Shown here: positions 11,121 to 35,937 of the stretch, one piece after another
How the letters are laid out: each line of letters starts with the position of its first letter
Position numbering within the stretch: the first letter of the stretch is position 1
Origin: an uncultured Bacteroidota bacterium
GTDB lineage: Bacteria; Bacteroidota; Bacteroidia; Bacteroidales; P3
NCBI GenBank assembly: GCA_902778925.1
Contig: CACYZN010000014.1
Span: forward strand, 29,421-93,420
DNA: 64,000 nucleotides
Reading direction: 5' to 3'
Notes under the pieces: generated by a model
Databases searched by the model: none
Told to the model about the DNA's origin: nothing
The model's input: the letters and a program-made list of their open reading frames with translations, nothing else
Made by a program: the position numbers and the translations under genes

Positions 11121-11243
11121 TCCCCTCCGCTTCCCCTCCGGTATTTCTTATGTACTTCTTATGTATTTCTTATGTATTTCTTATGTTTTAAACATAAATA
11201 CAACATAAGATATACATAAACCGGAAGCGGAGGGGATGGGGGG
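11121..11243. repeat. Palindromic iteron element, copy A
   Basis: A C-rich left end (TCCCCTCCGCTTCC) and its complement at the right end (GGAAGCGGAGGGGA, near 11222-11236) frame a long imperfect palindrome made of TTCTTATGTA-like units, centred on ATGTTTTAAACAT at 11183-11195. Three related copies lie at 22936, 27283 and 35829. It occupies the space between two divergent genes and holds no gene. Confidence 0.85.
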
Positions 11244-11260
11244 AATTACAATTTTTTGTG

Positions 11261-11268
11261 TATCTTTG
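11261..11268 (+). promoter_or_regulatory. -7 box for mfd
   Basis: TATCTTTG followed by C, the common Bacteroidota -7 form, 18 bases downstream of palindrome copy A. No good TTTG is seen 19 bases upstream, where the G-rich arm of the repeat lies. Its position makes the ATG at 11236 an unlikely start for mfd. Confidence 0.55.
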
Positions 11269-11304
11269 CAACGCAATTTTAACCAACCAAAGCGCAACTG
11301 CATC

Positions 11305-14300
11305 TTGATAATCAACGATATATATACCGACAGCCAGTTTGTGGCCCTGGTCGGGGAGCGACTGGGCAAGCGCGAGGTGCGCCTGCACATCGACGGCATG
11401 ACGGGGTCGATGCCCGCCGCGGTGATAGCCGCCACGGCCACCCGCATGGCCACGGCCTCGCACATGGTGATAGCGCCGTCGAAAGAGGCTGCCTTCTACA
11501 TGGCCAACGACCTGGAAGCGCTGCTGGGAGGTGATAGGTTAAAGGTTAAAGGTGAAACAGCTGAAGACCCTCAAGTTTCACCTCTCACCTCTCACCTCGC
11601 ACCAGCGGTGATGCTCTTCCCCACCTCGTACCGCCGGCCGTACCACTACGACGACCAGCCCACCGAGAACGCCAATGTGGTGATGCGCACCGAGGTGATG
11701 AAGGAGCTTGCCGCCGGCCGCCCCGCCATCGTGGTGACCTATGCCGAAGCGCTGAGCGAGAAGGTGGTGGGCAGCCGCACCCTGGGCGCCAACACCGTGC
11801 GACTGGTGCGCGGCGCCAAGGCCGACATCTGGGAGCTGGTGGAGCGACTGGCCGAGCTGGGCTTCGAGCGCGAGGACTTCGTGGTCGAACCGGGACAGAT
11901 GGCCGTCCGCGGCGGCATACTCGACATCTACTCGTTCGGCGCCGACCTGCCCTTCCGCATCGAGTTCTTCGACGACGAGGTGGTCTCGCTCCGCACCTAC
12001 GACGCCGCCACACAGCTCAGCGTCAAGCAGCTGGACCGCATCGACGTGATACCCCGGGTGTCCGACCTCTCGGACGGCTCGGGCCTGCCAGACCGCAGGG
12101 TCTCGCTGCTGGAATACTTCGGCTCGGACGATGTGGTGTGGACCCAGAGCCTGATGATGACCTGCGAGCAGATGGACCGCACACTCGACGACACAAGGCG
12201 CGCCTACGACGAGCGCATGGCCGACCGCGAGCACCCCATTGCCGGCGCCCTGCCCAAGCCCGACGACCTCAGCTGCGCGGCCAACGAGCTGCTGCGCAAG
12301 ATGCTCGACATGAAGATTGTGGAGTACGGCAACAGCCACTACTTCTCGACCGAGGAGCGCCTGGAAGCCCACAGCGAGCCGCAGCCGCCGGTCAACAAGC
12401 AGTACGACCTGCTGGAGCAGAACCTGGCCGACTATGCCGAGCGCCAATACCGACTGTTCATAGCCGTCTCGGGCGAAAGCCAGCAGCGCCGCCTGGAGAA
12501 GATATTGGCAGGTGGCAACGCCCAACTGCCATCCGCCGACCAACAACCGCCAACCAACAACTACCAACTGCTGACGTTCAACCTGAGCCACGGATTCATC
12601 GACCACGACCAGCGTCTGCTCTGCTATACCGACCACGAGATATTCGACCGCTACCACAAGTACACGGTCAAGGACATGCGCTCGCAGCGCGAGGCCATGA
12701 CCATCAAGGAACTCTTCGAGCTGAAGCCGGGCGACTTCGTAACCCACATCGACTACGGCGTGGGCCGCTTCTCGGGCCTCGAGAAAATCACCCAGAACGG
12801 CAAGACGCAAGAGGTGATACGCCTGATATACAAGAACAACGACGTGCTGTATATCAGCATCCACGGCCTGCACAAGATAAGCCGCTACGTGGGTCGCGAG
12901 GGCGAGGCACCCCAGCTGAACCGACTGGGGTCGAACACCTGGCAGGTGCTGAAGCAGAAGACCAAGCGCCAGGTGAAAGACATCGCGCGCGACCTCATAG
13001 CCCTCTACGCCAAGCGCAAGGCCTCGCGCGGCTTCGCCTTCAGCCCCGACTGCTCGATGCAGACCGAGCTCGAGGCCTCGTTCCAGTACGAAGACACCCC
13101 CGACCAGCTGAAAGCCACCGTGGCCGTGAAGCACGACATGGAAGAGCCCGTGCCCATGGACCGCCTGGTGTGCGGCGACGTGGGCTTCGGCAAGACCGAG
13201 GTGGCCATACGCGCCGCCTTCAAGGCCTGCTGCGACTCGAAGCAGGTGGCCGTCCTCGTGCCCAGCACCGTGCTCGCCTTCCAGCACTACAACACCTTCA
13301 GACAACGCCTCGCCGGCATGCCCGTGCGCGTCGACTACCTGAACCGCTTCCGCACCGCCAAGGAGAAGACCCAAATATACAAAGACCTCGAAGCCGGCAA
13401 GATAGACATACTCATAGGCACCCACGCCATCACCAACAAGGACCTCAAGTTCAAGGACCTTGGACTGCTCATCGTCGACGAGGAGCAGAAGTTCGGCGTC
13501 AGCGTCAAGGAGAAGCTGAAGCAGATGAAGGTGGGCGTCGACTGCCTCACCCTCACCGCCACCCCCATACCGCGCACCCTGCAGTTCTCGCTCATGGGGG
13601 CCCGCGACCTGAGCATCATACAGACCCCGCCGCCCAACCGCCAGCCCATAGAGACCGAGCTGAGCGACTTCAGCGAAGAGCTGATACGCGACGCCATCAT
13701 GTTCGAGATAAGCCGTGGAGGCCAGACCTTCTTCATAAGCAACCGCGTGGAGAACCTGCCCGAGATGGCGGGGCTGGTGCAACGTCTGGTGCCCGACGCC
13801 CGCGTCGCCATGGCACATGGCCGCATGGAAGGCAAGGAGGCCGAAGAAACACTGATGCGCTTCCTCGAGGGCGACATCGATGTGCTGGTGGCCACCAGTA
13901 TTGTCGAGAACGGCCTCGATATACCGAACGCCAACACGATGATCATCAACAACGCCCACCAGTTCGGCCTGAGCGACCTGCACCAGATGCGTGGCCGCGT
14001 GGGCCGCTCCAACCGCAAGGCCTTCTGCTACATGCTCATCCCCTCCTACCTCACCCTCACCACCGACGCACAACGCCGCCTGAAAGCCATCGAGGAGTTC
14101 TCGACCGTGGGCAGCGGCTTCAACATAGCCATGCGCGACCTCGACATACGTGGCGCCGGCAACATACTGGGCGCCGAGCAAAGCGGCTTCATCAGCGAGG
14201 TGGGCTACGACATGTACCACAAGATATTGAACGAGGCCATCGACGAGCTGAAGGAGAGCGACTTTGCCGACCTCTTTGCCAGCGAGGCCGAGGAAAAGAA

Positions 14301-14760
14301 AGAGTACGCCCGCGAGTGCACCATCGAGACCGACCTCGAGGTGCTGCTGCCCGACGAGTATGTCACCTCGGTGAGCGAGCGCCTGCTGCTATACCGCGAG
14401 CTGAACGACCTGCAGACTGACGAGGAGTTGGCCGCCTACCGCGCACGACTCGAGGACCGCTTCGGTCCCGTGCCGCAGGCCACCGACGAACTGATACGCA
14501 CCATCACCCTGCGTCGCATTGCCAAGGAGTTCGGCATAGAGAAGCTGATACTGAAGCAGAGCCGCATGGTGTGCCACCTGGTGAGCAACCCACAGAACCC
14601 GTTCTACCAGAGCGCCAACTTCAACAAGCTGATACAATACGTACAGGCCAACCCGCGCCGCGTGGCTCTCAAGGAGACGCCCGAGCGCCTGAGCCTATCG
14701 ATAGCCAACGTGCCGAATATCACAGCGGCGCTGGAGCAGTTGCAAAGGCTGACTGCATAG
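11305..14760 (+). CDS. mfd: Transcription-repair coupling factor Mfd
   Basis: About 1151 residues. Mfd is the DNA translocase that pushes stalled RNA polymerase off lesions and recruits UvrA. An N-terminal UvrB-like region is followed by a CarD-type RNA polymerase interaction domain (FELKPGDFVTHIDYGVGRF), a helicase core with Walker A GDVGFGKTE, motif II DEEQ and the TATPIPRTL motif, a second RecA-like lobe (GRMEGKEAEETL, VATSIVENGLDIPN, HQMRGRVGRS), and the TRCF C-terminal domain. The only upstream ATG in frame (11236) precedes the -7 box, so I favour the TTG at 11305; the true start is uncertain. Two low-complexity insertions, at 11536-11597 and 12521-12570, are in frame and sit between conserved blocks. 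A 21-base stem terminator follows. Confidence 0.93.
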   Translation: MIINDIYTDSQFVALVGERLGKREVRLHIDGMTGSMPAAVIAATATRMATASHMVIAPSKEAAFYMANDLEALLGGDRLKVKGETAEDPQVSPLTSHLAPAVMLFPTSYRRPYHYDDQPTENANVVMRTEVMKELAAGRPAIVVTYAEALSEKVVGSRTLGANTVRLVRGAKADIWELVERLAELGFEREDFVVEPGQMAVRGGILDIYSFGADLPFRIEFFDDEVVSLRTYDAATQLSVKQLDRIDVIPRVSDLSDGSGLPDRRVSLLEYFGSDDVVWTQSLMMTCEQMDRTLDDTRRAYDERMADREHPIAGALPKPDDLSCAANELLRKMLDMKIVEYGNSHYFSTEERLEAHSEPQPPVNKQYDLLEQNLADYAERQYRLFIAVSGESQQRRLEKILAGGNAQLPSADQQPPTNNYQLLTFNLSHGFIDHDQRLLCYTDHEIFDRYHKYTVKDMRSQREAMTIKELFELKPGDFVTHIDYGVGRFSGLEKITQNGKTQEVIRLIYKNNDVLYISIHGLHKISRYVGREGEAPQLNRLGSNTWQVLKQKTKRQVKDIARDLIALYAKRKASRGFAFSPDCSMQTELEASFQYEDTPDQLKATVAVKHDMEEPVPMDRLVCGDVGFGKTEVAIRAAFKACCDSKQVAVLVPSTVLAFQHYNTFRQRLAGMPVRVDYLNRFRTAKEKTQIYKDLEAGKIDILIGTHAITNKDLKFKDLGLLIVDEEQKFGVSVKEKLKQMKVGVDCLTLTATPIPRTLQFSLMGARDLSIIQTPPPNRQPIETELSDFSEELIRDAIMFEISRGGQTFFISNRVENLPEMAGLVQRLVPDARVAMAHGRMEGKEAEETLMRFLEGDIDVLVATSIVENGLDIPNANTMIINNAHQFGLSDLHQMRGRVGRSNRKAFCYMLIPSYLTLTTDAQRRLKAIEEFSTVGSGFNIAMRDLDIRGAGNILGAEQSGFISEVGYDMYHKILNEAIDELKESDFADLFASEAEEKKEYARECTIETDLEVLLPDEYVTSVSERLLLYRELNDLQTDEELAAYRARLEDRFGPVPQATDELIRTITLRRIAKEFGIEKLILKQSRMVCHLVSNPQNPFYQSANFNKLIQYVQANPRRVALKETPERLSLSIANVPNITAALEQLQRLTA
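11536..11597. repeat. Inverted heptad repeat inserted in frame in mfd
   Basis: The left arm (11536-11558) is built of GGTTAAA, GGTTAAA and GGTGAAA units; the right arm (11575-11597) is its complement with four mismatches, as GGTGAGA-type units. It encodes GDRLKVKGETAEDPQVSPLT-like sequence with no counterpart in Mfd. Similar heptads occur at 36762-36855. Confidence 0.8.
12521..12570. repeat. Second low-complexity heptad-like insertion in mfd
   Basis: About 50 bases of CCAACTG, CCATCCG, CCGACCAA, CAACTAC-type units, coding for AQLPSADQQPPTNNYQLL. It falls between KILAGG and the conserved GFIDHDQRLLCYTDHEIFDR block, where other Mfd proteins have a variable loop. Confidence 0.55.
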
Positions 14761-14763
14761 AAA

Positions 14764-14809
14764 ACAGAAGCAGAGCGGCGACCCTGATGGGTCGCCGCTC
14801 TGCTTCTGT
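14764..14809. terminator. Two-way terminator between mfd and the PepSY-like gene
   Basis: Perfect 21-base arms (14764-14784 and 14789-14809) with a 4-base loop (TGAT). It lies 3 bases after the mfd stop and 12 bases from the end of the converging gene. AAAAC flanks the left side, giving GTTTT for the minus-strand transcript. Confidence 0.8.
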
Positions 14810-14821
14810 ATCCGGGGCGTG

Positions 14822-15871
14822 CTACTGCACGTCGCGCTCGTCGAGGGGCTGGGCCAGGAGCTCGGTGAAGACACCGCGGTTGTCGAACTCCATGCGGGTG
14901 AAGCGCGGCTCGCGCACTCCTTTTATCTTCTGGCTCACCACCACGTAGGTGTAGGGCTTGGGCTTCTTGCCGTCGGCACCGCGGAACTTCGAGTTGTACT
15001 CGTAGACCACCATCTTCTCTATCTTGTACTTCTCGCCGTTGAACTTCTCGTCGAGGTACTGGAGTATGGCCTTGTTGTATTTATCCTTCTTGAGCAGCTT
15101 GCCGGTCATGCGCTGCTGGTTGGTGCGCATGTCGTAGACAGCCTCAAGCTTCTCCTTTTTGGCATTGCTGAAGTAGGCCACGGCATAGTAATCTCCACGT
15201 TTCACCCACTCGGGGCCGGCGGTGACGCGCTTGCCGAGGGTCTTCTGGAAGTTGTCCTTTATCTCTTCGGCGGGGTCGAAGTGTTCCACCTGAGGCTCGT
15301 CGACCACAGGGGCGGGCCGGTCGCGGCGACGGCTATTCTCGGTGCCGGTCTTCTGGCTCACCTTGTCGTCGGTAGCGTCGGGGTTGTTGTGGGTATAGTA
15401 GTCGCGCTTGACGGCATCCGGGTCGGGGGCATTGCTCTTCATCAGCTTGCCACGGGTGTCGAATATCATCTCGCAGTCGTTCTCGGCTATGCCTTTCTTT
15501 ATTATAATCATACGGTAGTAGTTGTCACCGTTCATCTCTTCGACATAGTCGATGCTCTTCACGCGGTAGCCCGGGTAGTTGTTGACAAAGTAGGTGTTCA
15601 TCATGGTGGGGCACTCCTCCATCTTGACGGGGAAAGCCGAGTACTGCCAATCGCCACCGGCAGTGAAGTAGGCACGGCCATTCTGTCCGTCTATGACCAC
15701 CTCGGCGATGTACTGGCCGGGGGCCTGGTACCAAGTGCGCACCTTGTACGACTCGTAGGTCTTCTCGAGCGACAGAAGCACGCTCTTAGGCACGGCGGTC
15801 TCTTTGATTTTGGTCTGTGCACCTGCCATCAGGGGCAGCACCATGAGCGCTATAAGAACGATCTTTTTCAT
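14822..15871 (-). CDS. Secreted PepSY-like (BLIP-like fold) protein
   Basis: A 349-residue exported protein with a signal peptide at residues 1-19 (ending AGAQ). Two similar halves are seen: residues ~25-150, with VPKSVLLSLEKTYESYKVRTW and TWYQAPGQYIAEV-like strands, and ~210-345, with a matching VKRGDYYAVAYF segment. They resemble the DUF2874/PepSY-like domains common in Bacteroidales periplasmic proteins. A charged, proline-rich linker (~155-200) joins them. Such domains are thought to bind peptides or proteins; no enzyme motif is present. It lies on the same strand as purA but 39 bases behind it with its own leader, so a shared transcript is possible but not required. Confidence 0.65.
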   Translation of the reverse strand: MKKIVLIALMVLPLMAGAQTKIKETAVPKSVLLSLEKTYESYKVRTWYQAPGQYIAEVVIDGQNGRAYFTAGGDWQYSAFPVKMEECPTMMNTYFVNNYPGYRVKSIDYVEEMNGDNYYRMIIIKKGIAENDCEMIFDTRGKLMKSNAPDPDAVKRDYYTHNNPDATDDKVSQKTGTENSRRRDRPAPVVDEPQVEHFDPAEEIKDNFQKTLGKRVTAGPEWVKRGDYYAVAYFSNAKKEKLEAVYDMRTNQQRMTGKLLKKDKYNKAILQYLDEKFNGEKYKIEKMVVYEYNSKFRGADGKKPKPYTYVVVSQKIKGVREPRFTRMEFDNRGVFTELLAQPLDERDVQ

Positions 15872-15910
15872 ATCGGTTTGTTTTTCTATTATGTACTTGT
15901 TGCTTCGGTT

Positions 15911-17209
15911 TTATTGCGCCTTGAAAAGCACGTCCTTTCGGTCGGGGCTGATGCTTACGGCGGCGATACGGACACCGGTCTGCTGCTCGATGGCGGCGAG
16001 GTAGCTGAGCAGGTTGGCCGGCAGGTCGTTGTAGTTCTCGATACCGGCAAGGCTTTGCTTCCAGCCCGCAAAGGGGGTAAGTACGGGGTGTATGGGGACT
16101 GTGTTGTATTCGAAGGGTATCTCGTCGGTCTGGCGGCCCTCGATGTCATAGGCGGTGCACATGCATACCTGATCGAAATCGTTCATCACATCGGGCTTGG
16201 TGACATAAAGCTCGGTCACCCCGTTTATCATGCAGGCGTAGCGCAGGGCTGGCATGTCTATCCAGCCACAGCGACGCGGACGGCCGGTGGTGGCTCCGTA
16301 CTCGTGGCCGAGTTCGCAGAGCTTGGCACCCGTCTCGTCAAACAGCTCGGTCGGGAAGGGACCCGCTCCCACACGGGTGCAGTAGGCCTTGGTGATGCCC
16401 ATCACCTTGCCGATGGTGCTTGGGGCCACACCAAGCCCAGTGCATACGCCAGCGGTGATGGTGTTGCTGCTGGTCACGAAAGGATAGGTACCGAAGTCGA
16501 TGTCGAGCATCATGGCCTGGGCACCTTCGGCGAGGACTCGCTTGCCGTCACGCAGGCACTGGTTGATGAAGTACTCGCTGTTTACGAAGCGGAAGCGCTT
16601 CAGGGTATCGAGGCTTTCCATCCACAGCTGCTCGTACTGGTCGAGGCCGAGGCCATCGATGCGGAAGCTGTCTATGTCGAAGCCCAGAGTCTGGGCCATG
16701 CGTATGTGCTGTTCTTTGAGCATGATGTAGCGCTCGCGGAAGTCGCTAGCCAAAATGTCGCCCACGCGCAGTCCAGTGCGGGCTATCTTGTCGGTATAGG
16801 CTGGGCCTATGCCTTTAAGCGTGGAGCCTATCTTCGAGTTGCCCTTTGCCTGCTCGTTGGCGGCATCCATCATGCGGTGGCTGGGCAGTATGAGGTGGGC
16901 TTTCTTCGACACCAGCAGGTTGCGCGTAGCGTCAACGCCCTTGGCGTCGAGCTCCTCAATCTCCTGACGGAAGATGCGGGGTTCAATCAGCACTCCGTTA
17001 CCTATGAGGTTCACTTTGTCGGTATGGAAGATACCGCTCGGTATGATGTGCAGCACATGCTTTATGCCGCCAAACTCCAAAGTGTGGCCTGCATTGGGAC
17101 CGCCCTGGAAACGGGCTATTACATCGTAGTCGGGTGTGAGCACGTCGACAATCTTACCCTTGCCTTCGTCGCCCCATTGGAGGCCTAACAGTACGTCTAT
17201 TTTGGTCAT
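15911..17209 (-). CDS. purA: Adenylosuccinate synthetase
   Basis: A 432-residue cytoplasmic enzyme that joins IMP and aspartate with GTP to make adenylosuccinate, the first committed step to AMP. The N-terminal GTP loop WGDEGKGKIVD is at residues 12-22, followed by FQGGPNAGHT, the GIGPAYTDK loop, and the C-terminal PTTIGRPRRCGW-type IMP/GTP motif, here ATTGRPRRCGW. Length matches the family. A well-spaced promoter lies at 17275-17304 on the minus strand. purH, another purine gene, is in the same window but far away (33941-35470). Confidence 0.97.
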   Translation of the reverse strand: MTKIDVLLGLQWGDEGKGKIVDVLTPDYDVIARFQGGPNAGHTLEFGGIKHVLHIIPSGIFHTDKVNLIGNGVLIEPRIFRQEIEELDAKGVDATRNLLVSKKAHLILPSHRMMDAANEQAKGNSKIGSTLKGIGPAYTDKIARTGLRVGDILASDFRERYIMLKEQHIRMAQTLGFDIDSFRIDGLGLDQYEQLWMESLDTLKRFRFVNSEYFINQCLRDGKRVLAEGAQAMMLDIDFGTYPFVTSSNTITAGVCTGLGVAPSTIGKVMGITKAYCTRVGAGPFPTELFDETGAKLCELGHEYGATTGRPRRCGWIDMPALRYACMINGVTELYVTKPDVMNDFDQVCMCTAYDIEGRQTDEIPFEYNTVPIHPVLTPFAGWKQSLAGIENYNDLPANLLSYLAAIEQQTGVRIAAVSISPDRKDVLFKAQ

Positions 17210-17274
17210 TATATATTAGTTATCAATCACAACAAGTCACTGGTCGATGACCACTGACCACATATTTCACGGTG

Positions 17275-17304
17275 CAAAGATACAACTATTTTTTTACATA
17301 CAAA
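17275..17304 (-). promoter_or_regulatory. purA promoter
   Basis: Minus strand: TTTG (17301-17304), 18-base spacer, TATCTTTG (17275-17282), followed 65 bases later by the purA start. This is a near-ideal Bacteroidota housekeeping promoter. Confidence 0.75.
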
Positions 17305-17365
17305 AACTTTTTTGGGGCCGGGACCAAGCACCCAGCCCTTCCGGCAAGGGTTCCCCTCCGTGTTT

Positions 17366-17410
17366 GGTCCGTATCCGCTCCGTATCCGGTCCGTATCAAG
17401 TCCGACTATA
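17366..17410. repeat. Iterated GGTCCGTATC element, copy 2
   Basis: Three units (GGTCCGTATCC, GCTCCGTATCC, GGTCCGTATC) and then AAGTCCGACTATA. Bases 17388-17410 equal 741-763 exactly. A C-rich TTCCCCTCCG head lies just upstream (17351-17360), like the head of the palindromic elements. The 263-base gap between purA and the sialidase gene otherwise holds only the purA promoter. Confidence 0.8.
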
Positions 17411-17472
17411 GCCGGTAAAAATACGTAGGAAAACCGGATGGAAATCGGACGGAAATCGGCGGTAATGCCATC

Positions 17473-18588
17473 CTATCGGGAGCGGCTCTCGAGCCAGTCA
17501 CGGTTGAAGCGGTAGTACCACAGCTCGCAGGCACCCTCTGGGTTTTTCTCGACATAAAGGCCTATGGAGCCGTCGGGCAGCATGGTGAGCGACGAGTAGA
17601 CCGAGGGGCCGGCGCACATCAGTACCGGCGAGTGCCACGAAAGGCCTTCGTCGTTCGAGGTAAAGATGCTCACATCACGGCGCTGCATCGAGTTGGGTAT
17701 GGAATGCAGCAGCGTGGTGTCGTCGAGGCGCAGCATGTCGCCGTTGCAGGCATTGGTGGTCATCTCGGGCCAGGTGCCCTGGGTGTCCCAAGTCGCGCCG
17801 CCGTCGGCCGAGGTGTTGTAGCCACGGGCACCGGAGCGGCGCACGCTGATGAGGACGCGGCCATCGGCAAGCTCCATCAGCTTGGCTTCGTCACCACCAC
17901 TGTAAGCCATGGCCGAACGCTGCCACGAATGTCCCTCGTCGTCGCTGTAGAGCACGTAGTTGTCGCTCACCTGCTCGCTGACACGCAGCATGGCGGCGGC
18001 CACGAGGATGCGGCCGGCATGGGCTCCACGACGCAGGCGCAGCCCGTTGCCCGAAGCCACAAAGGCTGCACGGTAGCTGCTCTCCGCGGTCCAGGCCACG
18101 GAGGTGAGGTTCACCGTGTCGCCCCAGGTAAGTCCGCGGTCGGTCGAGCGGCACATATAGATGCAGATGGGCTTCGCGGGCGTCGACTGGAAGTAGCCGT
18201 TGTGGCCAGCGAAGAAGCACAGCACGTCGCCGCCGGCGCACTGCACCAATGCGGGGTCGCCGTAGCCCTGACCGCGACCTTGGCCGGCGATGAGGGTTTG
18301 CGGCTCACTCCATGTCTTGCCCATGTCCGTCGAGCGGCGGTAGACGATGTCGATGTCTTCCGGCAGGTCGGCCTCGTTGTACTTACGCTTGTCGTTGACA
18401 GCTAGCAGGGTGCCGTCGTCGAGACAGAGCAGTGCCGGGATGCGCCAGTTGGCCGACCCATAGTCGCCGGGGCGGTAAAGGCAGACGCTGTCGCAAAAAG
18501 GCTCGTCGGCCAACGGAGCCTTGTGGCCGTCGTCGCCGCAGGCCACCGCCACAAGGGCGGCCAGCAGCATGATAGCGATATTCTTCAT
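17473..18588 (-). CDS. nanH: Exo-alpha-sialidase (GH33-like), probable surface lipoprotein
   Basis: A 371-residue six-bladed propeller sialidase, which removes terminal sialic acid from glycans. The arginine-triad motif RIP is at residues 49-51 (NWRIPALL). Five Asp-boxes are visible: STDMGKTW, STDRGLTW, SDDEGHSW, SADGGATW and SNDEGLSW. The nucleophile Tyr is expected in GPSVYSSLTMLPDG. The signal peptide ends in VAVAC, and the Cys is followed by GDDG, which resembles the acidic lipoprotein-export tag of Bacteroidota, so surface exposure is likely. It is the last gene of a five-gene same-strand run (18588-22871), 16 bases after the unknown gene. No transport or catabolic genes for sialic acid lie nearby. 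Confidence 0.85.
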   Translation of the reverse strand: MKNIAIMLLAALVAVACGDDGHKAPLADEPFCDSVCLYRPGDYGSANWRIPALLCLDDGTLLAVNDKRKYNEADLPEDIDIVYRRSTDMGKTWSEPQTLIAGQGRGQGYGDPALVQCAGGDVLCFFAGHNGYFQSTPAKPICIYMCRSTDRGLTWGDTVNLTSVAWTAESSYRAAFVASGNGLRLRRGAHAGRILVAAAMLRVSEQVSDNYVLYSDDEGHSWQRSAMAYSGGDEAKLMELADGRVLISVRRSGARGYNTSADGGATWDTQGTWPEMTTNACNGDMLRLDDTTLLHSIPNSMQRRDVSIFTSNDEGLSWHSPVLMCAGPSVYSSLTMLPDGSIGLYVEKNPEGACELWYYRFNRDWLESRSR

Positions 18589-18604
18589 TGCGGTCGGTTA
18601 TTGA

Positions 18605-19213: not shown

Positions 19214-19233
19214 ATCTCGGTATTTATTACTTA

Positions 19234-22871: not shown

Positions 22872-22892
22872 TCTTCACATAATAACACCCTG

Positions 22893-22900
22893 CAAAGATA
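22893..22900 (-). promoter_or_regulatory. -7 box for the M20-MATE-murB-unknown-sialidase run
   Basis: Minus-strand TATCTTTG 22 bases before the start of the M20 gene. The nearest TTTG (complement of 22925-22928) is 24 bases upstream, longer than usual. Palindromic element B begins a further 36 bases upstream. Confidence 0.55.
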
Positions 22901-22935: not shown

Positions 22936-23060
22936 CTTCCTCACCCCGTCCCCTCCCCTTCCGGTCCGGTCGTTCTTATGTACTTCTTATGTATTTCTTA
23001 TGTTGTATTTATGTTTAAAACATAAGAAATACATAAGAAATACATAACCGGAGAGGAAGG
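22936..23060. repeat. Palindromic iteron element, copy B
   Basis: The left end CCTTCCTC and right end GAGAGGAAGG are inverted; the C-rich head CCCCTCCCCTTCCGGTCCGG leads into TTCTTATGTA-type units centred on ATGTTTAAAACAT at 23011-23023. This centre is the reverse complement of that in copies A and D. Together with an ileS terminator it fills the gap 22901-23191. Confidence 0.85.
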
Positions 23061-23135
23061 CTTGAGGGACTGATTTTCAAGGCCTCCGGACAAGGGCGAA
23101 AACGGGGCCGGTTTCGGGGGTCGGGGTGCAGAAAA

Positions 23136-26615: not shown

Positions 26616-26620
26616 AAAAG

Positions 26621-26683: not shown

Positions 26684-26710
26684 CTTTCGCTGCAACAAGT
26701 GCAGCGAAAG
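26684..26710 (-). terminator. Terminator of the rpmG-DUF4295 transcript
   Basis: Stem CTTTCGCTGC (26684-26693) with 26701-26710 and a 7-base loop; on the minus strand it is followed by T7. It ends 23 bases after the DUF4295 stop. Confidence 0.85.
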
Positions 26711-26733
26711 CCCCTAAAATGTTATGAAAAAAA

Positions 26734-26889: not shown

Positions 26890-26908
26890 AGTTTAGTTCT
26901 CCTTTCTC

Positions 26909-27097: not shown

Positions 27098-27186
27098 AGC
27101 TGTTATTGTTTTTCTATTCTCTAACTACCTGAAGCCTAAAGCGAAAAGAGCATCAACAATTCGTTTTCAGGCGTTCAAACCGGCTG

Positions 27187-27217
27187 CAAAGATACACACT
27201 TTTCTGAAACCGGCAAA
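27187..27217 (-). promoter_or_regulatory. rpmG promoter
   Basis: Minus strand TTTG (27214-27217), exact 19-base spacer, TATCTTTG (27187-27194), 89 bases upstream of rpmG. Confidence 0.75.
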
Positions 27218-27282
27218 ATTTTTCTTCATCATTAACAAATTTTCTATCCCCACCGCCACCTCCATCCCACCCCTCCCCATGG

Positions 27283-27385
27283 CCTTCCCCTCCCCTTCCG
27301 GTCCGGTCGTTCTTATATCGTTCTTATGTATTTCTTATGTTGTATTTATGTTTAAAACATAAGAAATACATAAGAAATACATAAT
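27283..27385. repeat. Palindromic iteron element, copy C
   Basis: C-rich head (CCTTCCCCTCCCCTTCCGGT), then TTCTTATATCG and TTCTTATGTA-type units, centred on ATGTTTAAAACAT at 27348-27360, ending TACATAATGG. The centre has the same orientation as copy B. It occupies the middle of the 440-base gap between rpmG and the acyltransferase gene, which otherwise holds only their two promoters. Confidence 0.85.
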
Positions 27386-27504
27386 GGCTTTCAGAGGGTA
27401 GCGAGCAGGGGGCTTTTTGCCCGGGTTGCCGGGGGCGGGGATTTCAAGTGCCGACGGTGGATAAATATTTTTCGGGCGGGGGAGTGTATTTTTAGAATTA
27501 TGTG

Positions 27505-27512
27505 TATATTTG
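27505..27512 (+). promoter_or_regulatory. -7 box for the glsA-glsB-engB-dacB run
   Basis: TATATTTG followed by C, 24 bases before the ATG at 27536. It lies over an ATG at 27500 that would give a longer frame, which argues against that start. Confidence 0.6.
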
Positions 27513-27535
27513 CATCATCTTTTACAGAGTACATC

Positions 27536-28408: not shown

Positions 28409-28431
28409 CTATTAAAACAAAAGACACACAC

Positions 28432-29601
28432 ATGGACCTCAGTTACATAGCCCCTCCAGTAGACCGTAGCCTGATAAAGAAAGAGCTGAAGCAGAAACAC
28501 TTCCTGCGCATGACCAACCGTGGCAACAAAGAGATATACATCACCACGGCCCACCTCTCGCCCAACATCATGCGCGAGATAGGGCGCCTGCGCGAGCTGA
28601 GCTTCGCCACCGAGGGCGGCGGCACCGGCAAGGAGGTGGACATCGACGAGTACGACACCCTGCCCGACCCCTACTGCTGCAAGCAGCTCTTCGTGTGGAA
28701 CACCGAGGACGAGCAGATAATCGGTGCCTACCGCTTCATACACGGCACCAACATGATGCGCCGCAGCGACGGCAGCATCGTCACCCCGACCGCCGAGCAG
28801 TACCAGTTCAGCGAGCGCTTCATCAACGACTACCTGCCCTACACCATCGAGCTGGGCCGCGCCTTCGTGCAGCCCGCCTACCAGCCCAGCGTGAACCTGC
28901 GCGGCGGCATGTACTCGCTCGACAACCTGTGGGACGGTCTGGGCGCACTGGCCCTCGAGGTGCCCGAGACACGCTACTTCTACGGCAAGATTACCATGTA
29001 CGGCGACATCAACCCCGAGGCTCGCGACATGATACTCTACTTCTACCAGAAGCATTTCCCCGACCGCGACGGACTGGTGTGGCCCTACGAGGAGGTGCAC
29101 ATACAGACCGACTACAACAAGCTGGTGAAGCTCTTCAACGGCCGCAACTACAAAGAGGACTACCAGATACTGCTGCACTCGGTGCGCGAATGCGGCTGCA
29201 CCGTGCCGCCGCTCATCAACGCCTACATGAACCTCTCGCCCTCGATGCGGTCGTTCGGCACCTGCCCCAACCACCACCTGCAAGGCACCACCGACACAGG
29301 TATACTGATCGACCTGGGCGACCTCTATGCCGACAAGCGCAGCCGCTACCTGGAAAGCTACACCGAGAAGAACACCAAGCTGGACCGCAAGCGCCTGTTC
29401 CGCATCAACATGCGGCTTCTGCCATGGTGGCGCAACAGCAGCGACGAGGAGAGCGAAAGCCTGCGCGAGCTGAGCGAACTGAAGAACGACCAGATGCAGC
29501 GCACCGCGCTGCGCGAGAAAGCCCGCGAGCTGCAACTGGAACTGCGCAACATCAAGAAAGCACGGCGCCGCCTGAGAAAGGACAACAACAATGACAATTA
29601 A
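28432..29601 (+). CDS. glsB: GNAT-type N-acyltransferase, GlsB-like (glycine N-acyltransferase)
   Basis: A 389-residue protein whose first ~240 residues match the OlsB/hemolysin-type GNAT fold: MREIGRLRELSFATEGGGTGKEVDIDEYD, then QLFVWNTEDEQIIGAYRFI and ELGRAFVQPAYQ. GlsB uses acyl-ACP to N-acylate glycine, the first step to glycine and related amino-acid lipids in Bacteroidota. The C-terminal ~50 residues are a charged coiled-coil-like tail (ALREKARELQLELRNIKKAR). It starts 23 bases after glsA and its last 11 bases overlap engB. Confidence 0.82.
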   Translation: MDLSYIAPPVDRSLIKKELKQKHFLRMTNRGNKEIYITTAHLSPNIMREIGRLRELSFATEGGGTGKEVDIDEYDTLPDPYCCKQLFVWNTEDEQIIGAYRFIHGTNMMRRSDGSIVTPTAEQYQFSERFINDYLPYTIELGRAFVQPAYQPSVNLRGGMYSLDNLWDGLGALALEVPETRYFYGKITMYGDINPEARDMILYFYQKHFPDRDGLVWPYEEVHIQTDYNKLVKLFNGRNYKEDYQILLHSVRECGCTVPPLINAYMNLSPSMRSFGTCPNHHLQGTTDTGILIDLGDLYADKRSRYLESYTEKNTKLDRKRLFRINMRLLPWWRNSSDEESESLRELSELKNDQMQRTALREKARELQLELRNIKKARRRLRKDNNNDN

Positions 29602-30217
29602 AAGCGCCGTCTTCTCCATCAGCAGCCCCTCGCACGCCAAGTGCCCCACCGACGGACGCCCCGAGTTCGCCTTCATCGGGCGCAGCAACGTGGGCAAATC
29701 GTCGCTCATCAACATGCTCACCGGAGTGAAAGGACTTGCCAAGACCAGCGGACGCCCCGGCAAGACGCAACTCATCAACCACTTCCTCATCAACAACCAG
29801 TGGTATCTGGTCGACCTGCCCGGCTACGGCTACGCCCGCACCTCGAAGACCTCGCGCGACGCATGGAGCAACATGATACGCCAGTACTTCCTGCAACGCC
29901 GACAGCTCACCAACACCTACGTGCTCATCGACAGCCGCATCCCGCCGCAGCGCATCGACCTCGAGTTCATACACTTCCTCGGCACCAACGGCATACCGCT
30001 CTCCATCGTCTACACCAAGACCGACAAGGAGAAGCAGCGCGAGGTGATGGGCAACATACGCCTCATGAAGCAGGAACTGCTCAAGGAGTGGGAAGAGCTG
30101 CCGCCCATGCTGCTCACCTCGTCGCTGACCGGCTACGGCCGCGAGGCACTGCTCGACCATATAGACACCATCATCCAAAGCCTGACAACCGATGAACAAG
30201 AAGAAACACTGCAATAG
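29591..30217 (+). CDS. engB: Ribosome biogenesis GTPase EngB (YihA/YsxC)
   Basis: A 208-residue GTPase needed for large-subunit ribosome assembly. All GTP motifs are present: G1 GRSNVGKSS, G2 threonine in KTSGRPGKTQ, G3 DLPGYGYA, G4 YTKTD and G5-like TSSLTGYG. Length is usual. It overlaps glsB by 11 bases and the next gene by 26, so all four genes here are translated from one compact message. Confidence 0.96.
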   Translation: MTIKSAVFSISSPSHAKCPTDGRPEFAFIGRSNVGKSSLINMLTGVKGLAKTSGRPGKTQLINHFLINNQWYLVDLPGYGYARTSKTSRDAWSNMIRQYFLQRRQLTNTYVLIDSRIPPQRIDLEFIHFLGTNGIPLSIVYTKTDKEKQREVMGNIRLMKQELLKEWEELPPMLLTSSLTGYGREALLDHIDTIIQSLTTDEQEETLQ

Positions 30218-31673
30218 ACTGTCGGCGCTCGGCCTGGCGCTGCTCGTCGGCTTCATTTTCCCCACCCTACCCGCACAGGCACAAGGCACCATCGACCTGG
30301 ACCGCCTGGTGAACCAAACCCGCACCGAGACCGGCATGAAGCACGGCACGCTGAGCGTGTGCGTCTACAACATAAGCGCCGGCAAGACCGTCTACACCTC
30401 GCAGGCCGACCTCTCGGTCACACCGGCGTCGCTGCAGAAGTTGTTCACCACCGGCGTGGGCTTCGACCGCCTGGGCAGCGGCTTCCGCTTCCAGACACGT
30501 CTGTTTGTGCGCGGCGACACCGACCGCGACGGAGTGCTGCACGGCAACATATACATAGTGGGCGGCGGCGACCCGCTGCTGGGCTCCTACCGCTACCGCC
30601 AGACCTCGATAGACTCGCTCTTCGACGGCTGGACCCAAGCCCTGCGCAAAAAGGGCATACGCCGCGTCGACGGGCGTATATGCTTCAACACATCGGTATT
30701 CGACGACAGCCCGCTGCACGACAGCTGGCAGTGGGGCGACGTGGGCAACTACTACGGCGCCGGCGTCAGTGGCCTCAACTTCCACGAGAATATGTATTTC
30801 GTCTACTTCAACGCGGGCCGCAAGCTGGGATTCCCCGCCTCGACCGTAGGCACCAAGCCCAAGAACCTCGACCTGCGCGGCACCTGCGAGGTAACCACCG
30901 GCGCCGAGAACAGTGGCGACCAGGTGGTCATATACGGCTCTCCCACCTCGAAGGAGCGCCTCTACCGTGGCACGGTGCCCATGGGCAAGCAGAACTTCGC
31001 CGTGCGCGGCGCCCTGCCGGAACCCGCTCGCACCTGCGCCGACATGTTTGCCTCGCACCTGCGCACCAACGGCATCGGTATCAGCTCGAGCTCGGTGCAG
31101 GTCTACTCCACCCCCGACAGCCTACGGTCGGTACTCGACTACTACAGCCCCGACTACTACACCATAGCACAGTACACCAACCTCACGTCGAACAACATCT
31201 ACGCCGAGAGTATCTTCAAATACCTGGGCTATAAGCAGCACGGCAGCGGCAGCTACGAGAACGGCTCGCGCGCGGTGATGGACTACTTCAAGGAGAAAGG
31301 CCTCGACGTCGGAGGCGTGCGCGTGGTCGACGGCAGCGGCCTCTCGCGCCTCAACCGCACCACTGCCTCGTTCCTGTGCCGCTACCTCGCAATGATGAGC
31401 AAGGAAGACTACTACGACGACTTCATACACTCGCTGGCCAAGGTAGGCGAGAGCGGTACCGCTCGCAACATGCTGCCCACCCTGCCTCTTGGCATCACCG
31501 TGCGGGTGAAAACCGGCACCATGGACGGAGTGAAGGCCTACGCCGGCTACATCCAAGCCCGCAACGGCGACCTGCTGTGCTATGCCATTGTGAGCAACAA
31601 CCACGACTGCAGCAGCAAGGCCGTCGGCGACAAGCTGAACAAGATACTGCTAAAGATAGCCACCCTCTATTAG
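30192..31673 (+). CDS. dacB: D-alanyl-D-alanine carboxypeptidase/endopeptidase (PBP4, S13 family)
   Basis: A 493-residue periplasmic penicillin-binding protein that trims peptidoglycan side chains and cross-links. The signal peptide ends near residue 30 (LPAQAQ). The three active-site motifs are present: SxxK as SLQK in TPASLQKLFTTG, SxN as SNN in TSNNIYAES, and KTG in VRVKTGTMDG. The start codon lies 26 bases inside engB. The stop overlaps the stop of the converging carboxypeptidase gene by 4 bases, leaving no room for a terminator. Confidence 0.93.
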   Translation: MNKKKHCNRLSALGLALLVGFIFPTLPAQAQGTIDLDRLVNQTRTETGMKHGTLSVCVYNISAGKTVYTSQADLSVTPASLQKLFTTGVGFDRLGSGFRFQTRLFVRGDTDRDGVLHGNIYIVGGGDPLLGSYRYRQTSIDSLFDGWTQALRKKGIRRVDGRICFNTSVFDDSPLHDSWQWGDVGNYYGAGVSGLNFHENMYFVYFNAGRKLGFPASTVGTKPKNLDLRGTCEVTTGAENSGDQVVIYGSPTSKERLYRGTVPMGKQNFAVRGALPEPARTCADMFASHLRTNGIGISSSSVQVYSTPDSLRSVLDYYSPDYYTIAQYTNLTSNNIYAESIFKYLGYKQHGSGSYENGSRAVMDYFKEKGLDVGGVRVVDGSGLSRLNRTTASFLCRYLAMMSKEDYYDDFIHSLAKVGESGTARNMLPTLPLGITVRVKTGTMDGVKAYAGYIQARNGDLLCYAIVSNNHDCSSKAVGDKLNKILLKIATLY

Positions 31674-32890
31674 AGCACAATCACCTTGCGGGTGCCACGC
31701 TCGCCTAGGTGGACAAGGTAGACGCCAGGGTTCAGCACTCCGGCGCGCACCTGTCGGCCCACAAGGTCGAAGACCTGCACCTTCGAGGCACAGTCGGCCG
31801 GCACCACCAGTTGCCTGTCGCGGACATACACCACGGGGGCATCTTTCGTCGTGGGGTCTATGCTGGTCTGGTCTTCCGGCAACGAGAGTATTTCGGAGAT
31901 ATAGTTCACCAGCGAGTGCTGCAGCAAGCTCCAGTACTCGGGCAGGCGCTCGCAGGCAAGGGTCTTGTCTGCGGAGATCTCCATCGTTAGTTCCAAGCAG
32001 TTCTGGTAGTAGTTCATATAGTCTTGCCGTCCGCCATGTATCACATACCAGTCGCCACCGGCTATGTAGCCCTGAGCGTTGACGTCGCTGAAATGCGTGG
32101 CATCGACAGTGCGGCTGGTGTCGACGAAGCGCTGGCACACCGCGCGCCACCAGTCTGCCTGGGGGTGTGGGTTCTGCAGCGAAGTGAAGCAGTCCCACGG
32201 GAAGTTCATCACCTCGCTGCCTCCGTGCAGATTGGCGCTGAGGCGGAAGTCGTGTCGCTCTACATAGTCGATCATGGCCTCATTCTCGGGCTGAAGCACC
32301 GCTTTGGCACCAGTGCCGAAAGGGTCGGGGTAGTTGCGGTTCAGGTCGACATAGTTGGCGTTGTAGCGGATGGCGCCCTGCACGGTGTTGTTGCCGCGGT
32401 TGTAGGTACCATCGGGGTTGGCCAGCGGGTTGATGTAAATGGACACGCGGTCCATCAAGTCGGTATACCGGGCGTTGCTGCCATAGCCGCTGAGCAACGT
32501 GTCAATCAGGCGGAGCATCATCACGTAGCCCGTCACCTCGTCGCCATGGATGGTGGAGGAGTAGAAGAACTGGGGCTTCGCCGCACCCGAGCCGGTGCCG
32601 CCCTCTATGTGCATGCAAAGTATGAGGCGTCCCCGTACGGAATAGCCAATGGTGTCGACCTGACAAAGCAGTGGGTAGTCCTCGACCCAGCGCTGCATCA
32701 TGGCCAGATAGGTCTCATAGGTCGGGTAGCGGTCCCACCCGGCCATCTGGCTGATGTCGGATGCCATCGTGACCGACTTGGAGGCCACGGGGGCATCCTG
32801 CGGGGGGAAGGCGTCGGGACGCGGCTTCAGCTGTGCCACTGCCGCCACACTCGACAGCACAAGCACTGCGACGAGAAGCGCACGCCTCAT
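31670..32890 (-). CDS. M14 zinc carboxypeptidase with T9SS-like C-terminal domain
   Basis: A 406-residue secreted protein. Signal peptide at residues 1-20 (ending AVAQ). The M14 domain covers ~40-325: zinc ligands in STIHGDEVTGY (HxxE) and SANLHGGSEV, substrate Arg in YVDLNRNYPDPFG, and a catalytic Glu expected in LELTMEIS. The final ~75 residues resemble a T9SS type A sorting domain (VQVFDLVGRQVRAGVLNPGVYLV, ending RKVIVL) but lack the usual YPNP start, so the export route is likely rather than certain. Its ATG overlaps the mreB stop by 4 bases, and it converges on dacB. Trimming of secreted or peptidoglycan peptides is possible. Confidence 0.85.
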   Translation of the reverse strand: MRRALLVAVLVLSSVAAVAQLKPRPDAFPPQDAPVASKSVTMASDISQMAGWDRYPTYETYLAMMQRWVEDYPLLCQVDTIGYSVRGRLILCMHIEGGTGSGAAKPQFFYSSTIHGDEVTGYVMMLRLIDTLLSGYGSNARYTDLMDRVSIYINPLANPDGTYNRGNNTVQGAIRYNANYVDLNRNYPDPFGTGAKAVLQPENEAMIDYVERHDFRLSANLHGGSEVMNFPWDCFTSLQNPHPQADWWRAVCQRFVDTSRTVDATHFSDVNAQGYIAGGDWYVIHGGRQDYMNYYQNCLELTMEISADKTLACERLPEYWSLLQHSLVNYISEILSLPEDQTSIDPTTKDAPVVYVRDRQLVVPADCASKVQVFDLVGRQVRAGVLNPGVYLVHLGERGTRKVIVL

Positions 32891-33912
32891 CGGATGAGGA
32901 ATGAGAACTTGTTGAAGTTCTTGAGGGCGATACCGGTACCGCGGGCCACTGCGCGCAGCGGGTCGTCGGCTATGTGCACCTGCAGCTTGGTCTTGCTGCT
33001 GATGCGCTGGTCGAGGCCACGCAGCAGTGCGCCGCCGCCGGCCAGGTAGATGCCGGTCTTGTAGATGTCGGCTGCCAGCTCGGGCGGTGTAGCGGCCAGG
33101 GTATCGAGCACAGCCTGCTCTATCTGCGCTATCGAGCGGTCGAGGGCGTGGGCAATCTCCTTGTAGTTGACGCTAATCTCCTTGGGCAGACCGGTGAGCA
33201 GGTCGCGACCCAGAGTGCGGAAATCCTCGGGCGGGTTGTCGAGCTCACTCACAGCGGCGCCGACGGCAATCTTCACCTTCTCGGCCATACGCACACCAAT
33301 GATCATGTTGTGCTGGCGCTTCATGTAGTCGACCACGTTGTCGTTGAACACGTCGCCGGCCACCCTGATGGAGTTGTTGCACACGATGCCTCCAAGCGAG
33401 ATGACGGCAATCTCGGCGGTGCCACCTCCGATGTCGACCACCATGTGGCCCTCAGGCTGCAACACATCGATGCCGATACCGATAGCGGCGGCCATGGGCT
33501 CGTGTATCATGCGTATCTCCTTGGCACCGGCCTGCTCGGCGCTCTCGCGCACGGCGCGTTCCTCGACGTTGGTGATGCCGCTCGGGATGCATATCACCAT
33601 GCGCAGCGACGGGGGCAGGAACGAACGGTTGACGTTGGTCATGCCGATGAGTTCGCGTATCAGATGCTGCGCCATCTCGAAGTCGGCTATCACGCCGCCC
33701 CGCAGCGGGCGCACAGTCTCGATGTTCTTGTTGTCGGTACGGCCGTCCATGCGCTGAGCCTCCTTGCCGACAGCCACAATCTTGCTATTGTTGCGGTCGT
33801 AGGCCACTATCGACGGCTCGTCGACGACCACCTGGTCGTTGTATATCACAATGGAGTTGGCGGTGCCAAGGTCCATTGCCACCTCGCGGTTGAAGAATGA
33901 AAAAAGTCCCAT
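32887..33912 (-). CDS. mreB: Rod shape-determining protein MreB
   Basis: A 341-residue bacterial actin that forms membrane-bound filaments and guides lateral wall synthesis. It shows the N-terminal hydrophobic patch (MGLFSFF), phosphate-1 loop AMDLGTANS, EPMAAAIGIGI, the phosphate-2 segment VVDIGGGTAEIAVIS and adenosine site GIYLAGGGALLRGLD. In most Bacteroidales mreB is followed by mreC, mreD and pbp2/rodA. Here an M14 carboxypeptidase gene follows directly with a 4-base overlap. purH lies 28 bases upstream, the usual neighbour in this order. Confidence 0.97.
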   Translation of the reverse strand: MGLFSFFNREVAMDLGTANSIVIYNDQVVVDEPSIVAYDRNNSKIVAVGKEAQRMDGRTDNKNIETVRPLRGGVIADFEMAQHLIRELIGMTNVNRSFLPPSLRMVICIPSGITNVEERAVRESAEQAGAKEIRMIHEPMAAAIGIGIDVLQPEGHMVVDIGGGTAEIAVISLGGIVCNNSIRVAGDVFNDNVVDYMKRQHNMIIGVRMAEKVKIAVGAAVSELDNPPEDFRTLGRDLLTGLPKEISVNYKEIAHALDRSIAQIEQAVLDTLAATPPELAADIYKTGIYLAGGGALLRGLDQRISSKTKLQVHIADDPLRAVARGTGIALKNFNKFSFLIR

Positions 33913-33940
33913 ACTACCTATTTTGAGTTATGGATTATCC

Positions 33941-35470
33941 TTAGTGTTTGAAATGACGTTTACCTGTTATGGCCATACCCATCTTGTGCTGCTCGCAGTA
34001 GTCGATGCTGTCCTGATCGTGGATGCTGCCGCCGGGATGGGCCACGGCCACGATGCCGGCCTCGTGGGCTATCTCGACGCAGTCGGGGAAGGGGAAGAAG
34101 GCATCGCTGGCCATCACGGCGCCGTTGAGGTCGAAGCCGAACGACCGGGCCTTGGCGATAGCCTGGCGCAGCGCGTCGACGCGGCTGGTCTGGCCCGTGC
34201 CGCTGGCGTAGAGCTGACGCCCCTTGGCAAGCACTATGGCGTTGCTCTTGGTATGCTTGACGAGGATGGTGGCGAAAGCCAGGTCCTCGGCCTGCTGCTT
34301 GGTGATCTTGGTGCTGGTCACGCTCTTGCCCATCTCCTTGGCGGTGGGCACCACGGTGTCGCGGTCCTGCACCAACACACCGTCAAGCACCGAGCGGAAC
34401 ATGGGGTTGGCCATCTTGAAGCCCTTGCGGCGCAGTATGATGCGGTTCTTCTTGCCGCGGAGCACGGCGAGGGCGTCCTCGTCGTAGTCGGGAGCTATGC
34501 ACACCTCGAAGAATATCTTGTGCATCTCGTCGGCCACCTCCTTGGTCACCTTCTTGTTGCATACCAGCACACCGCCGAAGGCGCTCACCGGGTCGCCGGC
34601 TAGGGCGTCCTTCCAGGCCTCGAGCAGCGTGGGGCGCACGGCCATGCCGCAGGCATTGTTGTGTTTCAGTATGGCGAAAGCGGTCTGACCTTCGAAGTCG
34701 TCGATCAAGGCACAGGCGGCGTCGATGTCGCCCAGGTTGTTGTAGCTGATTTCCTTGCCGTTGAGCTTGTCGAAGCAATCCTCCAGGTTGCCGTAGAAGA
34801 CACCCTTCTGGTGGGGGTTCTCGCCGTAGCGCAGCACCTCGGCATGGCGGCAGCTCTGCTTGAACACGGGCAGCTGCTCCTCCTTGTTGAAGTGGTTGAA
34901 GATGGCGGTGTCGTAATGCGAGCTTACGTTGAAGGCATAGGCGGCAAAGCGGTGGCGCTGCTCCAGCGTGGTGCAGCCGTCCTGCTCCTTGTAGATGTCG
35001 AGGAACTCCTTGTAGTAGTCGACTGCAGGCACGATGACCACGTCGTTGAAATTCTTGGCAGCGGCACGGATAAGGCTGATGCCGCCGATGTCTATCTTCT
35101 CGATGATGTCCTGCTCCGAGGCGCCGCTGGCCACCGTCTGCTCAAAAGGATAGAGGTCGACGATGACGAGGTCTATCTCGGGTATCTCGTACTCGGCCAA
35201 CTGCTCGCCGTCGCTGTACATGTCGCGGCGCGACAGTATGCCGCCAAACACCTTGGGGTGCAGGGTCTTCACTCGGCCGCCCAGTATCGATGGGTAGCCC
35301 GTGAGGCTCTCGACCGTCACAGGCTCGATGCCGAGGTCGTGGATAAACTTGCAGGTGCCGCCCGTAGAATAAATCGTCACCCCCTGGGCGTCGAGGGCAC
35401 GCACTATGTCCTCCAGACCGTCTTTGTAGAAGACCGACACGAGGGCAGACTTTATACGTTTAGGTTCCAT
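33941..35470 (-). CDS. purH: Bifunctional AICAR transformylase/IMP cyclohydrolase
   Basis: A 509-residue enzyme for the last two steps to IMP. The N-terminal cyclohydrolase domain has STGGTCKFI and [16 protein letters not shown]; the C-terminal transformylase domain has [33 protein letters not shown] and [10 protein letters not shown] with the conserved [12 protein letters not shown] near the end. Length fits the family. It heads the purH-mreB-carboxypeptidase run, with a promoter at 35556-35586. Confidence 0.97.
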
Positions 35471-35555
35471 ATTACTGTTTTTGCTATATTACACTACACT
35501 CAAACCACTGTACCCGTACCACTTACGCAATACACGGCACAATAGTCACAGTTTG

Positions 35556-35586
35556 CAAATATACGCCATTTTTTTATTTTGGCAAA
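35556..35586 (-). promoter_or_regulatory. purH promoter
   Basis: Minus strand TTTG (35583-35586), exact 19-base spacer, TATATTTG (35556-35563), 85 bases before purH. Confidence 0.75.
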
Positions 35587-35642
35587 AAACATTTTTCAAC
35601 ACCGCGGAAAACCACCCGCCGCACAGCCGTGTCAGCCGCATC

Positions 35643-35668
35643 GGCCAGCCGGCCGTGGCCGGCTGGCC
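35643..35668. other. Perfect GC palindrome upstream of purH
   Basis: GGCCAGCCGGCC (35643-35654) and its complement (35657-35668) separated by GT. It lies in the 515-base gap between purH and the barrel gene, about 60 bases upstream of the purH promoter. There is no T-run. The rest of the gap up to repeat D (35669-35828) is C- and A-rich without a gene. Confidence 0.5.
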
Positions 35669-35828
35669 GCAGCCACCATACCTCCTCCCCACCCCACTAA
35701 CATTATTTAACATAAACACCCCCCACAACAGCCCCAAAACGACATCGAGCAGACACCTTAACCACACATACACAGCCCCTTGCAAAGCCACACCACCCCT
35801 AAACACCTCAAAACCAGCTCCCCTAGCC

Positions 35829-35937
35829 TTCCCCTCCCCTTCCCCTCCGGTAGTTCTTATATCGTTCTTATGTATTTCTTATGTATTTCTTATGTTTTAA
35901 ACATAAATACAACATAAGAAATACATAAGAAGTACAT
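35829..35937. repeat. Palindromic iteron element, copy D
   Basis: C-rich head TTCCCCTCCCCTTCCCCTCC, then TTCTTATATCG and TTCTTATGTA-type units centred on ATGTTTTAAACAT at 35892-35904, ending AAGTACATG. The centre has the orientation of copy A. The G-rich right end is missing. Confidence 0.85.

Follow-up and report, generated by a model that had tools for sequence, protein, structure and literature searches.

Four copies of a palindromic repeat lie dispersed in the 64,000-nucleotide stretch of DNA from an uncultured Bacteroidota bacterium that was analysed here (the window), and they raise the question of what kind of element this is and how it is maintained and altered. A sequence-only reading had placed four copies in the window, and all four were found. 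Copy A (11095..11245, minus strand; core 11181-11208) lies upstream of mfd, and its outer arms, read on the plus strand, are C-rich on the left and G-rich on the right. Copy B (22936..23080, plus strand; core 22998-23025) is located between an M20-peptidase gene and ileS, and copy C (27270..27390, plus strand; core 27335-27362), which has a short right arm, between ileS and a divergent acyltransferase gene. Copy D (35806..35937, minus strand; core 35890-35917) lies upstream of a purH-like gene. In Pfam scans, the genes adjoining the four copies resemble unrelated housekeeping genes, and no partition genes were detected among those scanned. The window also contains two very large ORFs, at 36941-55984 (minus strand, 6347 aa, scanned in pieces only) and 6244-10887 (minus strand, 1547 aa), each containing fibronectin type III domains and, at the C terminus, a domain for secretion sorting (Por_Secre_tail); the shorter one has cleaved-adhesin domains as well.

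Each copy consists of 11-bp units, in which TTCTTATGTA is joined by one variable base (TRF gives a period of 11; units of 10 bases had been proposed). These units are arranged head to tail on either side of an axis and inverted about it. As regards the palindrome that had been described, the inverted arrays were verified, but the centre proved to be asymmetric: the unit adjoining the axis on one side is TTGTATTTATG, and copies A and D are oriented opposite to copies B and C. When the four copies were folded as single-stranded DNA, z scores of -7.9 to -10.0 were obtained, and none of 200 shuffles folded as well.

With up to three mismatches allowed, the 28-bp core was found at 111 sites of the bacterium's own assembly (2.2 Mb, 54 contigs, 93% complete), 53 in forward and 58 in reverse orientation, and a backwards control gave no site, which excludes chance as the source of the window copies; copies whose centre deviates from the core by more than three mismatches escape this collection. 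Among the core sites listed, 91 of 100 were exact. The iteron dimer gave 414 sites at ≤1 mismatch (control, 0), and these sites, which are dispersed, bear out the earlier expectation of many more copies in the genome.

The anatomy of the family was derived from 98 of the 111 core-bearing copies. The core columns are 95-100% uniform, which is partly by construction, as the copies had been collected by matching the core at ≤3 mismatches. Agreement between copies reaches ~70 bp to the left and ~90 bp to the right of the core, beyond the length of ~110-125 bp estimated previously, and fades without a sharp end. Measured outside the stretch used for collecting the copies, the information per 11-bp unit, from the core outward, is 21.3, 20.1, 15.3, 11.3, 7.3, 4.9, 4.7, 2.4, 1.7 and 0.9 bits on the right and 19.2, 11.8, 8.5, 6.7, 5.2, 2.6 and 1.7 bits on the left. 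The 11-bp register is held through all layers, into the C-rich and G-rich arms. Outward from the axis, AT-rich units (GAAATACATAA, GAAGTACATAA) are followed by GAACTACCGGA and, on the right side, by G-rich units (GGGGAAGCGGA, GGGGAAGGCTG, GGGGAGCTGGT) and an outermost TTTTCAG; the left side is the C-rich mirror of the right, with differences in detail. The same two positions vary in the inner units (GAA nn A), whose edges retain GAA/TTC.

The comparison with relatives covered 59 genomes of the genus, namely the own genome and 58 congeners (genomes are labelled G and loci L below). Relatives with 91-94% identical IleS are Bacteroidales MAGs of the RUG series, which we take to be rumen genomes, and a red-deer MAG; the ring at 78-80% IleS identity includes Candidatus Colimorpha. 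Absence from relatives had been named as a finding that would refute the earlier reading, and the outcome was mixed. The exact iteron dimer was found in none of the 58 congeners, but several of them carry arrays of the same architecture built of other units. Seven palindromic 11-bp arrays were detected in 80 IleS loci (in L121, L122, L123, L127 and L131; none in block-shuffled sequence), and seven in 15 sampled congeners (3-80 kb each), where they occurred in four of the fifteen (G002, G016, G029, G048); with a looser detector, an array was found upstream of mfd in 4 of 29 congener loci. The unit pair of G029 has 690 sites in that genome, 11 in G001 and 9 in G012 (≤2 mismatches). The unit TATCGTTGAWG occurs in 14 of the 59 genomes at ≤3 mismatches, with 237 sites in G025, 34 in G023, 22 in G008 and fewer elsewhere (the control gave one hit, in one genome).

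Consensus arms, which had been selected and aligned visually prior to shuffling, agreed at 31 of 43 positions between the own family and G008/G023, at 24 of 43 between G008/G023 and G029 (0 of 2000 shuffles as good in either case) and at 22 of 42 between the own family and G029 (9 of 2000 shuffles as good), the shuffles preserving base composition only. The unit families of these genomes thus probably share an origin, and divergence is greatest in their centres. A G029 copy folded as single-stranded DNA with z = -15.9. Although long perfect palindromes are generally regarded as unstable in bacteria, G029 keeps long palindromes with near-perfect pairing (a 103-bp array) among its 690 matching unit sites. 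The window itself holds other 11-bp arrays, at 708-757, 17352-17413 and 58795-58883, whose units are GGTCCGTATC(N) and AAGTCCGAC(N). Similar sequences form outer layers in G029 arrays (AAGTCCGTATC, AACACCGTC), and the window arrays may be what is left of older unit families.

It should be noted that period 11 is unremarkable by count. Hits at scaled thresholds numbered 7 and 9 for period 11, compared to 12 and 11 for period 7 (period 8, 3 and 11; period 9, 5 and 6; period 10, 2 and 2; period 14, 6 and 0), and TRF identified 56 period-7 arrays and 33 period-11 arrays over the 80 loci; the arrays that were read and followed are those of period 11. Heptamer tandem repeats (CTCTCCA, CACCTTT, AGGTGAA and TTCGAAT types) often adjoin the arrays or share their intergenic regions, as in the own copies L061, L066, L084, L098 and L101 and at 36762-36828 of the window. 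Many contigs of G025 start or stop inside an array (e.g. C7, C13, C17, C36, C42, C51). Metagenome assemblies are probably broken up by the arrays, and counts taken from MAGs may underestimate the number of copies.

The way in which arrays change can be seen in the sister species G008 and G023, which share 95-97% DNA identity around mfd. In 29 G023 arrays, as well as in G008 arrays, units X (TTCTTCAGTAG) and Y (TTCAACGATAC) are mixed in register in many orders, with X inside Y in some mosaics and outside Y in others. An array is kept at the same place in G008 for 10 of 14 comparable G023 arrays (the tenth being L391:2869). At the mfd locus G008 retains one unit, at L384:3041 it retains the outer layers only, and at L384:7484 it has a different, decayed centre (in a poor alignment); L378:5935 gave no alignment with G008 and is uninformative, and L391:17528, located at a G008 contig break, was left out of the count. 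Orthologous arrays differ by whole 11-bp units (L369/L366, L388/L359, L391/L411). Of 9 pairs, 8 also differ in the central 5-6 nt: changes were seen at 14 of 53 sites at the axis versus 43 of 668 arm sites (p = 1.7e-5). Thirteen loops were counted in 21 copies of G029 (with 2 adjacent stem 9-mers), and for unit X there were 14 loops in 18 copies of G008 (3 adjacent stem 9-mers) and 6 in 11 copies of G023 (2 adjacent stem 9-mers; one loop in 5 of the 11); counts for unit Y were contaminated by chance matches and left out. The own family has one loop only, in 10 of 10 distinct contexts counted (identical contexts merged). In 10 sister pairs, whose discovery through a unit search biases them toward conserved arrays, ungapped identity was 0.91 in the arrays versus 0.74 in the 60-bp flanks (0.87 versus 0.63 with gaps counted); the array was clearly above the flank in 6 pairs and about level with it in 4 (L387/L361 second, L388, L390, L391). 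The elements are a family of dispersed DNA repeats with a strict register, and between species this family turns over fast.

Several motifs in the window read away from the copies and are called promoter-like here, presumably corresponding to the Bacteroidetes promoter motif. These are TATCTTTGC (11261..11269, plus strand), which reads from copy A toward mfd, two minus-strand motifs that appear as GCAAAGATA on the plus strand, one reading away from copy B (22892..22900) and the other from copy C toward ileS (27186..27194), and TATATTTGC (27505..27513, plus strand), which also reads away from copy C. For 95 own copies the flanking sequence was long enough to look for TAnnTTTG within 350 bp of the array edge: the motif reads outward at 86 of them, compared to 30 of 332 random positions at the same loci, and inward at 13 (random positions, 34 of 332). 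With the stricter TAnnTTTGC, the 98 copies gave 66 rightward motifs at +100 to +400 and 40 leftward motifs at -100 to -300, and, pointing inward, 1 rightward motif in the 400 bp on the left and 4 leftward motifs in the 400 bp on the right. According to a crude gene caller, the 87 element-bearing intergenic regions comprise 41 co-directional, 38 divergent and 8 convergent ones. The outward motif accompanies arrays of congeners in 26 of 28 cases in G023, 18 of 27 in G008 and 4 of 8 in G029 (counted without a random control). The M20-peptidase gene follows ileS directly (within ~40 bp) in 5 of the 12 relatives listed, versus a spacer of >300 bp in the own genome, which holds copy B and a promoter motif; this difference may be read as one sign of gain.

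Conservation of position across the unit families of distant species was considered and dropped. In the first count, made with 98 copies, 20 of 67 flank matches were near an array, with 2.9 expected under uniform placement, but in a later count 16 of 19 close matches came from stretches chosen for holding arrays. Outside such stretches, the close cases were 3 of 27 element junctions, versus 1 of 9 control promoter junctions (a small control). Co-location across distant species is not claimed, since it was not above a fair control.

A classical non-autonomous mobile element had been suggested by the sequence-only reading. Such a transposon (MITE) might have multiplied in bursts through an unrecognised transposase, with slippage later altering the number of units and with a passive position upstream of promoters. 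The elements are short, non-coding, multicopy and intergenic, as MITEs are, and the high copy number with near-identical cores, the strong expansions in single genomes (G029, G025) and the place occupied by copy B, where some relatives have almost no spacer, fit bursts of this kind. However, 97 copies showed no excess of flanking direct repeats over permuted pairs that would indicate target-site duplication (a comparison whose power is limited by the fuzzy ends), no clean empty site was found in the relatives compared, and agreement between copies fades gradually at the ends. As for terminal inverted repeats, the whole element is palindromic. The 10 of 14 loci common to the sister species and the tips that vary on constant stems in other genomes also argue against a MITE. 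The classical form of the proposal is not supported by these results, and a MITE origin seems to us possible but doubtful. The accompanying statement that the window holds no transposase is consistent with the Pfam results for 19 of its proteins or protein pieces; genome-wide, the sole transposase family searched was Y1_Tnp, with no match in the own assembly, and a transposase of another family, or one encoded in the 7% that the assembly lacks, is conceivable. Mobilisation by a RAYT (Y1) transposase, as for REPINs, would suit high-copy intergenic inverted repeats, and Y1_Tnp is present in 39 of the 59 genus genomes, including G023 and the heavily loaded G025. Yet three array-bearing genomes, the own assembly, G029 and G008, gave no Y1_Tnp match, and the detector found no 11-bp array at ten congener RAYT loci (L400 has one single Y-like unit), which largely refutes this origin and leaves it highly improbable. 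REP-like repeats of other kinds (GACCCCTACGGGGTCG, CCAGCCAATGAATTGGCTGG and AGGGCCTTTCTTTCAATAG types) lie beside the RAYT-like genes of L398-L401 and L403 (5 of 6 loci read); they are a separate repeat system of the same genus.

Functional readings can be set against the same data. If one protein bound each 11-bp unit, for regulation or chromosome organisation, with the site co-evolving with the protein, one could account for a register of about one helical turn, for the GAA/TTC kept in each inner unit beside two varying positions, for the outward promoter-like motif at 86 of 95 copies and for arrays clearly more alike than their flanks in 6 of 10 sister pairs. In the other four pairs, however, array and flank are conserved to about the same degree, and the way in which pairs were found favours conserved arrays; moreover, the neighbouring genes in the window are unrelated and housekeeping-like, co-location in distant species did not exceed the fair control, and we know of no protein that binds the arrays. 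We consider this reading doubtful but, like the MITE origin, a live rival; if it were true, the arrays would represent a type of upstream cis-element for uncultured Bacteroidales of the gut. The strong hairpin potential, which was computed as DNA, could also suggest hairpins acting in RNA, as terminators, attenuators or small RNAs. We give this very little credence, as outward motifs greatly outnumber inward ones (at 86 versus 13 of 95 copies), only the 8 convergent regions mentioned above were counted among 87, and an Rfam scan of the window yielded 0 matches above the gathering score.

The explanation that we favour, with a probability of roughly 0.45, is that the elements are dispersed, apparently non-coding palindromes of in-register 11-bp units, located mostly upstream of promoter-like sites in a rumen-type member of the Bacteroidales, and that they are re-written at a processed axis by copying or recombination. 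The family was observed directly; its mechanism might be the following. The arrays would spread and be re-written as DNA, the palindrome being processed at its axis (the tip of a hairpin or cruciform) and then repaired or copied with other copies as templates. Because of the repeated register, arms and half-units could recombine, so that new centres would spread through the genome, with older units surviving at the periphery. That the arrays persist upstream of promoters would reflect either tolerance, if wide intergenic regions are scarce elsewhere, or a role in binding protein. We infer re-writing at the axis from tips that vary while stems stay constant in several genomes, from mosaics with X units inside Y units, and from the joining of mosaics in register. 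The 111 cores, the outward loss of information, the whole-unit differences at orthologous loci, the failure to find a target-site duplication signal and the lack of a Y1 match in the own assembly also speak for the favoured explanation. Against re-writing at the axis stand the lack of tip variation in the own family, the mosaics with X outside Y, and the arms of single copies, between which no matching of variants was seen (25 commonest rows, by reading, without a statistic). Spreading was not directly seen, and the arrays mostly stay in place between the sister species.

A bolder version of axis re-writing, which we regard as speculative and improbable, is a class of self-propagating palindromes without a transposase of their own: the host would open the tip, repair from other copies would re-write the centre, and 11-bp 'growth rings' would build up. 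The youngest unit family would then be central, with older remnants outside, and from the arrays one could read off which repeat families had succeeded one another in a genus. The usual explanation for palindromes dispersed in bacterial genomes invokes RAYT transposases or the ends of transposons. A class with a strict register, mosaic arms, fast-changing tips in several genomes and no linked RAYT would point to another route for the spread and turnover of short repeats.

The structure had been said to belong to no named family. In line with this, no published description of such a family was found in the open-access papers searched (most subscription journals lie outside them), and no match to the element was obtained in Rfam (window), in phages and plasmids (E 1e-3) or in viral contigs (exact pattern only). 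Among known Bacteroidales repeats, PINSR of Prevotella intermedia is a 188-bp repeat with 177 and 184 copies, reported without terminal inverted repeats (PMC4755523). Both are strongly amplified intergenic repeats, and PINSR occupies mostly conserved places in two strains, but the accessible text presents it as a 188-bp repeat and contains no 11-bp array. The BrickBuilt MITE of Porphyromonas gingivalis has a 23-nt unit, a leader and tail, terminal inverted repeats resembling those of the IS5 family, and 19 copies (PMC4596501). It has in common with the present family the intergenic location in Bacteroidales, the tandem units within a dispersed element and the assembly gaps at copies; the family described here differs in its period of 11 and its palindromic order about an axis, and a 23-nt unit with leader and tail was not found in it. 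REPs are 20-40 bp long, carry GTAG or CGTC tags, lie mostly downstream of genes and are tied to RAYTs (PMC3116915, PMC3733652). REPs and REPINs resemble the present elements in being dispersed, high-copy intergenic inverted repeats that are capable of forming hairpins and have species-specific family sequences, whereas the arrays described here consist of 11-bp units, lie upstream of promoter-like motifs, and no link to RAYTs was found for them. A period of 11 bp is also characteristic of parC centromeres, whose contiguous 11-bp direct repeats, each about one helical turn, are bound by ParR. There, the repeats form a plasmid site beside the parMR genes, whereas here they make up about a hundred palindromes dispersed over a chromosome.
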